Assembly: GCF_022662575.1 (NCBI RefSeq)
Contig: NZ_JALBFU010000003.1
Span: 248,879-312,878, forward strand
Length of the DNA: 64,000 nt
Origin: Luteimonas aquatica
Lineage (GTDB): Bacteria > Pseudomonadota > Gammaproteobacteria > Xanthomonadales > Xanthomonadaceae
Direction: 5' to 3'
Shown: piece after piece, positions 35,619 through 41,678 of the stretch
Layout of the letters: the number at the start of each line of letters is the position of its first letter
Position numbering within the stretch: the stretch's first letter is position 1
The notes under the pieces: model-generated
What the model was told of the DNA's origin: nothing
Databases searched by the model: none
Seen by the model: only the letters and a program-made list of their open reading frames with translations
Made by a program: the position numbers and the translations under genes

Positions 35619-35712
35619 CTCGCCGAGGGGCGCTGCGACCGTGTGCGGACCGTTTCCGTAAAGTCCTACAAGACGGCCAGGCTCGGCGACGTGTCACCGT
35701 AACGGCGCCCGT
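35619..35712 (+). promoter_or_regulatory. S-adenosylhomocysteine (SAH) riboswitch
   Basis: All conserved blocks are present: CGCCGAGGGGCGCTGCGACC (35621-35640), CCAGGCTCGGCG (35677-35688) and the pseudoknot partner AACGGCGCCCGTG (35701-35713). P1 pairs CGCCGAG with CTCGGCG, and GGGCGC pairs with the distal GCGCCC. SAH binding stabilises this and turns the gene on. A GAGTCC/GGACTC hairpin next to the ahcY ribosome site could be the platform. TAGAAT at 35605-35610 is a likely -10. Confidence 0.93.
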
Positions 35713-35757
35713 GACTGCGAGTCCCCTCCCGGACTCACGACAACGGAGCACTACACC

Positions 35758-37203
<1,446 letters not shown>

Positions 37204-37230
37204 TCGCCGTCGCGAGACGGCCTCGACGGG

Positions 37231-37260
37231 AATGGGCGCCACGGCGCCCATTTTCGTTTC
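37231..37260 (+). terminator. intrinsic terminator of ahcY
   Basis: ATGGGCGC / GCGCCCAT stem followed by TTTCGTTTC, 28 nt after the ahcY stop. It separates ahcY from the lanthipeptide genes. Confidence 0.75.
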
Positions 37261-37590
37261 CGGCATCGGCCGGTGTCGGCGCCGCTCCGCAGGATCGGGC
37301 GATGCGTCGAGGCGGGACGCAACGGACCCGCGGAATTTGCTGCAAATGCACATCGATGCCCGCGCCGTTACGCCCGGATTCCGTACAACGCCTCTCCCGG
37401 CGGCCTCGCGAGGGGCGGTATTCATGCTCGCCGGGACGTGAATCCTCGTTAATGGATCTCTGGATAGAGTGGCGCGGCCCCATGGCCCCGGCGCTGCATG
37501 CGCAACGCAGGACGCCATCGCTGCACAGATGCGGACGAATGTGCGGCCGAGGTGCGTGACGTCCGCCTACCATCATTGAGGATCTTGACC
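37261..37590 (+). promoter_or_regulatory. upstream region of the class II lanthipeptide precursor
   Basis: About 330 nt with no supported gene. The AT-richer patch at 37445-37475 (TTAATGGATCTCTGGATAGAG) is the most likely promoter position, with GATAGA as a weak -10. No known regulator site is recognised. Confidence 0.35.
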
Positions 37591-37728
37591 ATGCCAGTGC
37601 AATTCGATCTTTCGAGCGAAGATTTCGAGCAGCTGCAGCAAGAAGTGATCGGCGAGCCCGATCTGCGCAATGAGAAGATGGAAAACGGCCGCGTTCCGTG
37701 GACGCCCCGCTGGACCTGCATCGCCTGA
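37591..37728 (+). CDS. class II lanthipeptide precursor peptide
   Basis: A 45-aa peptide directly before a LanM synthetase. The acidic helical leader FDLSSEDFEQLQQEV is of the kind LanM enzymes bind. The stretch GEPDLRNEKMENG leads to a very short core, RVPWTPRWTCIA. If cleavage follows the Gly of MENG, the 12-residue core has one Cys (C43) and two Thr (T38, T42). At most one methyllanthionine ring can form, most simply T38 to C43. No protease or transporter gene lies nearby. The peptide is short for class II, but its position and leader make the call good. Confidence 0.75.
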   Translation: MPVQFDLSSEDFEQLQQEVIGEPDLRNEKMENGRVPWTPRWTCIA

Positions 37729-37747
37729 TGCCCAGGTAGGACCCAAG

Positions 37748-37776
37748 ATGGGCTGCGCAACGCAGCCCATTTTTTT
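37748..37776 (+). terminator. intrinsic terminator/attenuator between precursor and LanM
   Basis: A perfect 10-bp stem ATGGGCTGCG / CGCAGCCCAT with loop CAA, immediately followed by seven T (37770-37776). The LanM ATG is the next three bases. Most transcripts should stop here after the precursor, leaving a minority to read into the synthetase gene. Confidence 0.85.
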
Positions 37777-40656
37777 ATGGCGAGCGCGCTCGGCGACGAA
37801 GACATCCAGGCATTGCGTCCATTCCTGCGATGGGCCGCGCCTGCATTCGGACCGGCGTTGAACCGGGTCGAGGACGCCTACCGAAACGCCTCCGACAGGC
37901 ACCCGCACAAGCTCGATCCGGACACCCTGCTGCCCAGCATCGAAGCGGCGTTCTCGACGCCGGTACTGCTGTGGAGCTTCCGCACCCTGATCCTGGAACT
38001 CGCCCTGGCCCGCCGTCGCGGGATATTGCAGGGAGATACGCCGCAGGAAAGATTCCACGCGTTCATCGAGCTGATTCAAAGCGCTTCGGGCCGCGCCGCC
38101 CTCGAACGGGATTACCCGCTGCTGCGCGGGGATATCGCCCGCATCGCGGAACAAGTCGAGCGGACCCTGCACACGCTCCTGGACCGGATCGTGCAGGATC
38201 ATGCCGCGCTGGGCCCGATCGGCCACCCGCTGGGCGGCGCCGTCGAGGGGATCGGGCGATGGCGCGGCTTCGAGACGGGGCTCGGCGACAGGCATGACGA
38301 CGGAAACACGGTCGCGCGCCTGGAGTTCGAGCATGGCTCGATGTTCTACAAGCCGCGTCCGATGGCGATGGACGCGGCGTTCGCCCGGTGCCTGCGGATG
38401 TTCATGGAGCGGGGCATCCGGCCGGCGCAGCGGACTCCGCTGGTGCTCGACAGGGGAGACTACGGATATGCCGAGCATATCCGGCACGTCCCGGTCGACA
38501 GCGAGGCCGCGGCATCGGCCTACTACCATCGGTATGGAGGGCTGATCGCCATCGCGCATGTGGTCGCGGCCTCGGACCTGCACTTCGAGAACCTCATCGC
38601 GTGCGGAGAGTTCCCGGTCGTCGTCGACCTGGAGACGCTGTGCCAGCCGCGCTCCGAGCGCACGAACCACGGCGCCGACGGACTGGCGGCCGCAAGGTCC
38701 ATCCTGGAGTCCGGGTTGCTGCCTACCCGCTACAGCATGCTGGACGCGGTCGACGTCAGCGGCCTTTCGGCCGGCGGCGGGTTCCGCCTCGCGCACAGGA
38801 TCTTCGATGCCGGCAGCGACGAAATGCGCCTGGCGCAGGTCCAGGAACGGAAGCAGCGTGCGCACAATCTTCCCGTCCGCGGGAACGGCAGCGTACCGCT
38901 GCCCTACGCGCACGCCGATTCGCTGCTCGAGGGATTTCGATCCACCTATTTCGGCTTGGCGGAGAACAAGGATTGGCTGCTTTCGAAGGACGGGCCCCTC
39001 GAGCCGTTCGCCGGCCTCAAGTCGCGCGCCGTGCTGCGCTCCACCATGATCTACAGCCGCCTGCTCGACGCCCTGTCGCACCCGAAATACCTGCGCGGCA
39101 GGCAGGCGCGCGAGGAGGCGCTGGACAGGCTGAAGGTCGGCCAGGAGGATTGGGCCCGCCTGCAACGCGTCGACTGCGCGGAGCGGGCGGCCCTGGAGCG
39201 CGGCGACGTTCCGCGATTCTGGATCGGTGGAGACAGCGTGGACGTCGAGTTCGACGCGGGCCGGACCGCGTCCGGATTCTTCACGAGTTCGGGAATGCAG
39301 GAAATCCGCAGGCGCGTGCGGTCCCTCTCGCCTGGGGACTTCGACAGGCAACGCTACGTCCTCCACCAGTCCTTGCAAAGCACCCGCCTCGACGAGCCGG
39401 CGACGGCGTCCGCTCCCATGGACGCCGCGCCGCGCCGCCGCGCGCCGCGCGCCTTCGAGGAAGCCGCCCTGCGCATCGCGAGCCGGATCGAGGCGATGCG
39501 CTTCCCGGATCGCCGGCATCCCCTGTTCGTCCACCTCGACTACGCGTCCCACGACGTTCCCCGCCTGGGACCGATGGACGATGCGCTGTACGAGGGGCTT
39601 CCGGGATTGATGCTGATGCTGTCGGAAGCGGGCCTGCGGACCGGCCGCAAGGCGCTCCTGGCCCGCTCGGCGGCCATCATGGCGTCCGTGGACGACCGCC
39701 TGCGGCGCGCCCCGGATTCGCTGCCCGCGATCGGCGCCTTCAACGGCCTGAGCGGCTGGATCTATGCGCTGCTGGCGCTGGGACTGCGCCAGCAGCGCCC
39801 CGACCTGGTGGACGCCGCACTGGCATGGGTTCCGGCCGTTGCGGAGCGCATCGCGGACGAGCAGGAGCTGGACGTCATCGGAGGCGTCGCGGGCTGCCTG
39901 CTGGTGCTGCTGCAGCTGCATAGCCATCGGGACGATGCGCGCGTGCGCGCGGCGGCGGGACAGTGCGCCGACCGCCTGATGGCCTCCGCCAGGCGCGACG
40001 CGTCCGGGACGTGCTGGCACGACGCCGGCGACGGCCAACCGGATGCGACGGGATTCGCGCACGGCTCGGCAGGCATCGCCGCGGCGCTGGCCCGTTACGC
40101 GGTCGCATTCGAGGATCCGCAGTGCCTGCAGGCGGCCCTCTCCGCCTTGGCCAGGGAGCGCACCGCCTACGAGCGACGCCAGGGCTCGTGGTACGACCTC
40201 GATGCGACGCACGCATCCGGCGGGATGCGCAAGGGCAGCGCATCGTGGTGCCATGGCGCCTCCGGCGTGGGAATGGCGCGCCTGCTTTGGCCGCGATCCT
40301 TGCGCGACGCCGCATGGCGACAGGACGTTCAACGCTGCCTGGATGCCGTGCTGGCGAGCCTGGACAGCGCCGCCGGGCACAGTCTTTGCCACGGCAGCTG
40401 GGGGAACCTCGACTTTCCGCTGGAATGGGCGGTCCAGTCCGGCGACGCGGCGCTGCTGGCGCGATGCCGCCGGCTCGCCGATGCGCTCCTGGTCCAGGGC
40501 CGCAACGGCTGGGTCTGCGGCGGCCGCACGGAAAGCGAAATGCCGCTGGGCCTGATGGTCGGTCTCAGCGGAATCGCCTATGCCTGCCTGCGGGCCGCCG
40601 ATCCGCAGCACGTGCCGTCGATCCTGAGCTTGAACGTGCCTCCGGGACCCCACTGA
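37777..40656 (+). CDS. class II lanthionine synthetase LanM
   Basis: Bifunctional 959-aa enzyme that dehydrates Ser/Thr and adds Cys thiols to form (methyl)lanthionine. The N-terminal DUF4135 dehydratase has kinase-like residues: YKPR (K192), SDLHFEN (D267, H269, N272) and VDLETL (D284, E286). The C-terminal LanC-like cyclase has the zinc ligands Cys825 (SWCHGASG), Cys871 and His872 (LCHGSWGN), so both halves look active. The ATG lies at the end of a terminator T-tract without a Shine-Dalgarno, and no better in-frame start exists nearby. No LanT, protease or immunity gene is adjacent. The locus sits between ahcY and metF. Confidence 0.93.
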   Translation: MASALGDEDIQALRPFLRWAAPAFGPALNRVEDAYRNASDRHPHKLDPDTLLPSIEAAFSTPVLLWSFRTLILELALARRRGILQGDTPQERFHAFIELIQSASGRAALERDYPLLRGDIARIAEQVERTLHTLLDRIVQDHAALGPIGHPLGGAVEGIGRWRGFETGLGDRHDDGNTVARLEFEHGSMFYKPRPMAMDAAFARCLRMFMERGIRPAQRTPLVLDRGDYGYAEHIRHVPVDSEAAASAYYHRYGGLIAIAHVVAASDLHFENLIACGEFPVVVDLETLCQPRSERTNHGADGLAAARSILESGLLPTRYSMLDAVDVSGLSAGGGFRLAHRIFDAGSDEMRLAQVQERKQRAHNLPVRGNGSVPLPYAHADSLLEGFRSTYFGLAENKDWLLSKDGPLEPFAGLKSRAVLRSTMIYSRLLDALSHPKYLRGRQAREEALDRLKVGQEDWARLQRVDCAERAALERGDVPRFWIGGDSVDVEFDAGRTASGFFTSSGMQEIRRRVRSLSPGDFDRQRYVLHQSLQSTRLDEPATASAPMDAAPRRRAPRAFEEAALRIASRIEAMRFPDRRHPLFVHLDYASHDVPRLGPMDDALYEGLPGLMLMLSEAGLRTGRKALLARSAAIMASVDDRLRRAPDSLPAIGAFNGLSGWIYALLALGLRQQRPDLVDAALAWVPAVAERIADEQELDVIGGVAGCLLVLLQLHSHRDDARVRAAAGQCADRLMASARRDASGTCWHDAGDGQPDATGFAHGSAGIAAALARYAVAFEDPQCLQAALSALARERTAYERRQGSWYDLDATHASGGMRKGSASWCHGASGVGMARLLWPRSLRDAAWRQDVQRCLDAVLASLDSAAGHSLCHGSWGNLDFPLEWAVQSGDAALLARCRRLADALLVQGRNGWVCGGRTESEMPLGLMVGLSGIAYACLRAADPQHVPSILSLNVPPGPH

Positions 40657-40853
40657 GGTTCGTCCACGAGCAAGCCTGGGCGGAGCTCGACGCCGACGCC
40701 TGGCGGCATCGCCGAAAAGCAGATATGCTTCAATCGCGATAAAGCGATATAGCTGCACGGGCCGGGGGATTCCGCGCGCGGACAGGCGCAGGACGCGTCG
40801 TCCACGCCGACACCGGTCCCGAGTGAAATCCACGAATCCTGCGCCGAGTCCCG
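40657..40853 (+). promoter_or_regulatory. metF upstream region with GCGATA repeats
   Basis: Between the LanM stop and metF. At 40735-40752 the sequence ATCGCGATAAAGCGATAT holds two direct GCGATA units and a TCGC/GCGA inverted repeat in an AT-richer setting. This could be a methionine-cycle regulator site or a promoter spacer. Its identity is unproven. Confidence 0.35.
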
Positions 40854-41678
40854 ATGGCTTCTCTCTCCTTCGAGTTCTATCCCCCGAAAACCGACGAGCA
40901 ACGCGAGCAGCTCGACCGCACCGCCAGGAAGCTCAAGGCGCACGGACCAGACTACGTCTCCTGCACGTTCGGCGCCGGCGGCTCCACGCTCGATTACACG
41001 CCGGAAACCATCGAACGCCTGCACCAAGTGCACCGGCTCGATGCCGCTCCGCACATTTCCTGCATCGGCGGCACCCGCGCCGAGCTCGGCGCCCTGCTCG
41101 CGCGCTACAAGACGATGGGCTGCCGGCGCATCGTCGCCCTGCGCGGCGACCTGCCCTCGGGCATGGCGCGCACCGGCGATTTCCGCTACGCCACCGACCT
41201 GGTGGAATTCATCCGCCGCGAACACGACGGCTTCTTCCACATCGAAGTCGGCTGCTACCCGGAAACGCATCCACAGGCCGAGCACGCACTGGCCGACCTG
41301 AAGCATTTCAAGGCCAAGGTCGACGCCGGCGCCGACGGCGCGATCACCCAGTACTTCTACAACGCCGACGCCTATTTCCGCTTCGTCGAGGACGCGCGCA
41401 GGCTGGGCGTGGGCATTCCGATCGTGCCCGGGATCATGCCGATCTCCAACTTCAGCCAGCTGCGGCGCTTCTCCGAGGCCTGCGGCGCCGAGATTCCGCG
41501 CTGGATCGGCAAGCGCATGCAGGCCTACGGCGACGACATCGATAGCATCCGCGAATTCGCCGCCGACTTCGTCGCCGCGCTGTGCCGGCGACTGGTCGAG
41601 GGCGGCGCGCCGGCGCTGCATTTCTACACGCTCAACCTGGCCAAGCCGACGCAAGCGGTGCTGGCGCGCCTGTCCTGA
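40854..41678 (+). CDS. metF: methylenetetrahydrofolate reductase
   Basis: FAD enzyme reducing 5,10-methylene-THF to 5-methyl-THF for methionine synthesis. The 274-aa protein has the family start LSFEFYPPKTDEQREQLDRT, the FAD/folate-site CTFGAGGSTLDYT, RIVALRGDLP and the GADGAITQYFYNADAYFRF block with the catalytic-region Gln and Tyr. A short bacterial MetF without the regulatory domain. In related genomes it usually follows ahcY directly; here about 3.65 kb lie between, so it probably has its own promoter. Confidence 0.97.
   Translation: MASLSFEFYPPKTDEQREQLDRTARKLKAHGPDYVSCTFGAGGSTLDYTPETIERLHQVHRLDAAPHISCIGGTRAELGALLARYKTMGCRRIVALRGDLPSGMARTGDFRYATDLVEFIRREHDGFFHIEVGCYPETHPQAEHALADLKHFKAKVDAGADGAITQYFYNADAYFRFVEDARRLGVGIPIVPGIMPISNFSQLRRFSEACGAEIPRWIGKRMQAYGDDIDSIREFAADFVAALCRRLVEGGAPALHFYTLNLAKPTQAVLARLS

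Follow-up and report, generated by a model that had tools for sequence, protein, structure and literature searches.

The window, a 64,000-nt stretch of Luteimonas aquatica DNA (contig NZ_JALBFU010000003.1), contains a precursor gene and a lanM gene between ahcY and metF, with all four genes on the + strand in the order ahcY, precursor, lanM, metF. The features of this region are as follows.

35619..35717, + strand: SAH riboswitch 5' of ahcY, outside the cassette (Rfam RF01057, 55.9 bits versus a gathering score of 37)
35758..37203, + strand: ahcY, adenosylhomocysteinase, the left neighbor (NCBIfam TIGR00936, 631.6 bits, above cut-off)
37225..37258, + strand: terminator-like hairpin 3' of ahcY, followed by a T-rich stretch (fold z -4.97)
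37503..37590, + strand: cassette 5' region common to the Lysobacter copies (blastn edge and alignment)
37591..37728, + strand: precursor gene, 45 aa with one Cys (ORF; leader approximately residues 1-33, R34-A45 invariant)
37745..37773, + strand: intercistronic hairpin, its T run reaching into the LanM start codon (fold)
37777..40656, + strand: lanM, class II lanthipeptide synthetase, 959 aa (TIGR03897, DUF4135, LANC_like; cassette homology stops at the stop codon)
40733..40749, + strand: SamR-like site 5' of metF, the right neighbor's own control element (one mismatch to ATCGCGATAAAGAGATA)
40854..41678, + strand: metF, methylenetetrahydrofolate reductase, the right neighbor (NCBIfam TIGR00676, 325.3 bits, above cut-off)

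Rfam, NCBIfam, folding, and residue alignment bear out an earlier note on this DNA, which had read the region as an SAH riboswitch, ahcY, a terminator, a 45-aa precursor, a complete LanM, and metF. The note had also pointed out that the lan pair came without genes for transport, proteolysis, regulation, or immunity, and the window ORFs and gene calls agree: the 3.6-kb gap between ahcY and metF holds the hairpin, the cassette, and the SamR-like site, and none of these gene types or any further lan-type gene was found in it. The hairpin at the end of ahcY, which did not appear in the output of a simple consensus terminator scan, is predicted to keep the lan genes off the riboswitch transcript.

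LanM scores 650.7 bits against TIGR03897 (cut-off 304) and carries the DUF4135 dehydratase and LANC_like cyclase domains (Pfam) that place it in class II. Residues D267/H269/N272 and D284/E286 align with CylM, and C825, C871, and H872 align with LicM2; we take the former to be the catalytic residues and the latter to be the zinc ligands. The precursor, MPVQFDLSSEDFEQLQQEVIGEPDLRNEKMENGRVPWTPRWTCIA, has Thr38, Thr42, and Cys43 in its C-terminal part, so that Ser/Thr and Cys lie in a peptide encoded directly beside a class II enzyme. Its core, R34-A45 (37690-37725), reads RVPWTPRWTCIA and contains one Cys and two Thr. Judged from these features, the precursor and LanM together are a class II lanthipeptide biosynthetic locus, with the thioether ring itself predicted. 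Like the class II loci of LicM2 and CylM, it combines a LanM bearing a dehydratase and a zinc cyclase with a short leader-core precursor directly 5'. Unlike them, it has no LanT, LanP, regulator, immunity gene, or GG site, and its precursor has a single Cys. Because no Pfam or NCBIfam entry matches the precursor at E values up to 1, annotation that relies on precursors would miss it. Our literature search found no mention of fragments of this or related precursors, and none of the literature it returned linked lanthipeptide, Xanthomonadaceae, and LanM together.

Variability of the ahcY-metF interval

The earlier note had placed the lan genes within a conserved ahcY-metF methyl-cycle operon. 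We surveyed 52 Luteimonas genomes with LanM, ahcY, and metF as queries and found ahcY in all 52 and metF in 51. The two genes share a contig in 46 genomes, always on the same strand and in the order ahcY, metF, but the gap between them ranges from 127 to 22,880 bp (under 250 bp in seven), and its cargo varies by gene calls, the commonest gene being DUF3228 (33 of the 46; assigned by Pfam from one copy). In a further sample of 22 genomes, comprising 10 with related LanMs and 12 members of other genera picked by hand, 19 keep ahcY and metF in this order on one strand, and the gaps, read by eye, are 440 bp to 12 kb. The three exceptions had the genes on different contigs, had them in opposite orientation, or yielded no ahcY. 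Since the order is kept while the gap and cargo vary, the ahcY-metF interval can be described as a family-wide variable site, and its recognition as a cargo site helps in interpreting gene gains in Xanthomonadaceae.

An SAH riboswitch lies 5' of ahcY in all 20 of the interval loci searched (of 47 fetched). The ATCGCGATAAAGAGATA motif, allowing up to three mismatches, is present in the 200 bp preceding metF in 43 of the 46 genomes, compared with 6 of 1,000 random 200-bp pieces of the window, for a consensus that was itself derived from the same metF-upstream sequences. The motif matches ATC-10 nt-GAT, given as the consensus for SahR and SamR in excerpts of PMC4239095. The same excerpts place metF in the ahcY operon in all studied SAH-riboswitch lineages except Xanthomonadales, where metF paralogs are under SamR and MetR. 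The window thus resembles the ahcY-metF operons of other Proteobacteria in having a riboswitch before ahcY and metF downstream on the same strand, but it differs from them, as far as those excerpts describe them, in that Xanthomonadales metF lies outside the operon and, in the window, ahcY and metF are separated by a hairpin, the lan cassette, and metF's SamR-like site. The hairpin, the 3.6-kb gap, and this site tell against co-transcription of metF from the ahcY riboswitch.

Because metF has its own SamR-like site and lies outside the ahcY operon in Xanthomonadales, the lan genes would have broken no riboswitch operon. The variable interval with its varied genes, the SamR-like site, and the excerpted account of Xanthomonadales in PMC4239095 speak against both an operon-splitting insertion and the conserved operon that the note had assumed. 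Its proposal that the lan genes were inserted fared better. LanM occupies the interval in the window's genome only (1 of the 46), the Lysobacter cassettes described below lie elsewhere, and in the nearest relative, G022 (ahcY 98% and metF 92% identical), 142 bp separate the two genes and no lan gene lies between them. G022 is one of the three genomes without the motif upstream of metF (with G029 and G038), and because this site is missing, its short interval may be a later deletion and not the ancestral state. In G019, the next closest by metF, a 1,076-bp interval holds a gene for 185 aa and a SamR-like motif.

Copies of the cassette in Lysobacter

Among 395 family genomes, LanM orthologs at 70 to 71% identity were found only in G335 and G319 (genus inferred to be Lysobacter), which brings the sample of this cassette, here called A-type, to three copies. 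The three LanMs form one clade with 100/100 support. At the DNA level, the window and Lysobacter cassettes are 76.4% identical from 37503 (with L083) or 37511 (with L082, from G335) to 40645 or 40658, and the G335 and G319 cassettes are 94.5% identical over a stretch that begins 219 bp 5' of the precursor and runs to the LanM stop codon. Homology ends within about 10 bp of that stop codon, the flanks are unlike at all three sites, and the G335 cassette lies 1.8 Mb from ahcY. The shared 5' region contains a conserved GATGCGGACGAATGTGCGGC; a motif common to the regions upstream of A-type and Lysobacter B-type loci is suggestive only.

At the cassette edges we found no IS, integrase, or terminal repeat, so "mobile" refers here to position and distribution. 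Plasmid carriage and phage carriage were both rejected: LanM matched 142 of 72,556 plasmid records, all below 60% identity, and gave one weak match in 50,697 phage records, with no occurrence of the core pattern in viral contigs. Separately, genes of filamentous-phage type, for coat protein B and a replication protein, lie at L082 986-2500, some 3.5 kb away from the cassette in G335.

R34-A45 is identical in all three copies, with no nonsynonymous and four synonymous changes relative to the window, and the leader has six to seven nonsynonymous changes between the window and the Lysobacter copies. LanM has a dN of 0.205 and a dS of 0.65 (dN/dS of about 0.3). Such constraint on the enzyme, its intact catalytic and zinc residues, and a core that is invariant despite synonymous change make it very hard to see the locus as a decaying remnant with no product, as the missing transporter, protease, and immunity genes might otherwise suggest.

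We consider it probable that the locus is a self-contained, horizontally moving two-gene class II cassette that makes a conserved single-ring peptide and has no LanT-type exporter. A GAGG ribosome site at 37578-37581, 5' of the precursor start, would drive translation of the precursor, while two features, the intercistronic hairpin and a poor or absent ribosome site ahead of LanM, would hold the enzyme below its substrate. LanM would dehydrate Thr38 and Thr42 and would then join Cys43 to one of the two. Thr38 is the most plausible partner, and the result would be a single methyllanthionine ring of six residues; with only one Cys, no second ring can form. A single Cys makes for a minimal lanthipeptide, and dehydration without a ring is possible. 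The 12 residues of R34-A45 would be the selected product region, and export, from a leader with no double-Gly site, would bypass a C39 ABC transporter. The cassette would have come to rest at an established cargo site, the ahcY-metF interval, past the end of the ahcY unit under riboswitch control and ahead of metF with its separate control. It would be functionally unconnected with the methyl cycle.

In one alternative, which bears directly on the word "moving," the ancestor of the lineage already had this arrangement and most relatives have lost it. Between the window and G335, LanM has a pS of 0.438 and a pN of 0.179, and metF has a pS of 0.337 and a pN of 0.180. LanM is at least as diverged as metF at synonymous sites, which does not show recent transfer, so the distribution may instead come from an old gene held in common and lost many times; a related pair that holds the position between rplQ and dsbB in two Luteimonas species points the same way. 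Against this, a LanM ortholog above 49% is present in only 1 of the 52 genus genomes, the Lysobacter cassettes occupy other sites, and B-type LanMs differ more among sister species (pN 0.215) than A-type LanMs do between genera (pN 0.179). On balance, we regard ancestry with loss as improbable and retain a gained cassette as the better account.

Codon usage in the leader (37591-37689) is a separate observation: its synonymous positions are unusually conserved relative to LanM. Compared with G335, 23 of 24 conserved degenerate codons in the leader are identical, against 426 of 646 in LanM, and none of 623 LanM windows is as high. Other pairs follow the same trend (8 of 8 higher), but weakly, with P values of 0.014 to 0.16 outside the first pair and pairs that are not independent. 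An RNA element as the cause was rejected, as a 291-nt fold was no better than shuffles (z -0.86). Read-through of the stop codon from precursor into LanM was also discarded: the two share one frame in the window, but in only 4 of 11 frame-resolved loci, which is the chance level.

The wider LanM clade and the export question

Nine further loci carry a LanM at 42 to 49% identity and a related leader, and all are precursor-plus-LanM units. They are C51 in the same genome, G022, Lysobacter G248, G342, G139, G349, G185, and G281, and G580 from another family. The core has three Cys in seven of the nine and two in G281; in G580 (L102 6247-6707, a reversed locus), two different precursors with two and four Cys precede one LanM. 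A search for unlinked extra precursors with profile A2 was negative: across the 395 family genomes, the profile matched 12 times, in 11 genomes. Of these matches, 11 lie beside a related LanM, and the remaining one (G074, 18 bits) is probably chance. In wider samples, LanM matches were found in 5 of 397 genomes of an order sample (E 1e-120) and in 1 of 369 of a class sample (E 1e-100), this one being the window's own genome.

All 12 related loci have a hairpin in the space separating the precursor from LanM. That of the window (37745-37773), which the earlier note does not mention, has a z score of -3.5, with none of 200 shuffles equally stable; z is -2.2 or lower in 10 of the 12, and about -1.4, and so weakly supported, in the other two. 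The T run occurs in only two loci, both in the window's genome, and is missing in the others. In three Lysobacter B-type loci (L086, L087, and L088), no in-frame ATG, GTG, or TTG lies between the hairpin and the conserved LanM N terminus.

Lanthipeptide precursors usually have an exporter gene beside them, and lanthipeptides are normally regarded as exported antimicrobials or signals. We searched the related loci with two C39 ABC proteins as queries, a search confined to the C39 ABC type that recovered both source loci as positive controls. No C39 ABC exporter was found in any of the 12 (about 5 to 7 kb per side, and the whole window for the window locus). The earlier note had called the locus minimal and unusual, and so it is, but it is not a stripped-down one, as standing without a nearby C39 ABC gene is the rule for this LanM clade. 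The window itself has two other ABC genes and no C39 ABC gene, and its precursor leader has neither the GG site nor the linked exporter by which PCAT/LanT leaders are recognized.

The lone C39 ABC exporter of the genome lies on C2 (L066 6213-9854). Its neighbors are an ATP-grasp gene, a gene for a 54-aa peptide with an IAGG leader, and HlyD, and the locus looks graspetide-like. No C39 ABC exporter was found in G335 or G319, each of which gave one C39 match, a 247-aa protein with no ABC domains by gene call (and, for the G335 copy, by Pfam), and no C39 domain was found in the G580 genome. As there is no GG leader, and the C39 ABC exporter is tied to another locus or absent, LanT-type export of the window peptide appears unlikely.

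An ordinary exported lantibiotic, with protease and exporter encoded elsewhere, could still use the lone C39 ABC exporter or another secretion route. This would fit the presence of such an exporter in the genome, the GG leader and C39 ABC gene downstream of LanM in a distant relative (G099, LanM 38%), and the activity against a bacterium described for rhodanocins, products of relatives' LanM-type loci, in excerpts of PMC11451712 and PMC9576775. It sits poorly with a window leader that has no GG site, with an exporter placed beside its own GG peptide and ATP-grasp gene, and with C39-type searches that found no C39 ABC gene in G335 or G319 and no C39 domain in G580. We think it rather unlikely, if worth keeping in view. 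More doubtful still is the proposal that the cassette peptides are never exported and that the constant single-ring peptide acts inside the producer as a regulator, an inhibitor of an intracellular target, or a protective factor; a peptide that stays inside would never need transporter or immunity genes. If the two-gene cassette does yield an identical product across genera and sites, in genomes where searches turned up no C39 ABC exporter, intracellular action or another exit route becomes testable.

A LanM-type gene outside a standard lan cluster has a counterpart in CA_C0082 of Clostridium acetobutylicum, but excerpts of PMC10301443 describe that gene as having neither the catalytic and zinc residues nor a lanthipeptide cluster, whereas the window LanM is intact and has an adjacent precursor. 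Also similar in layout are the DUF6229 loci of Lysobacter and Rhodanobacteraceae, which have a precursor and LanM in the same order (PMC9576775 and PMC11451712, in excerpt). DUF6229 is the precursor family of rhodanocins according to the former, and accounts for 21 of 27 unique Lysobacter precursors in the excerpted text of the latter; the window type may be among the other six.

Two more precursor-plus-LanM pairs in this genome, C13 (L007) and C49 (L008), have DUF6229 precursors and no adjacent transporter. The window precursor does not match DUF6229 (PF19740), for which the C13 and C49 precursors were positive, and its LanM is about 31 to 33% identical to theirs. The C51 pair (L006 6821-9929) lies between rplQ and a dsbB-like gene, as does its counterpart in G022 (L067); between these two genomes, the LanMs have a pN of 0.215 and metF a pN of 0.045. 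In the C49 pair, there is a partial duplication of the hairpin and the start of LanM, and a C49-type pair occupies another site in G022.
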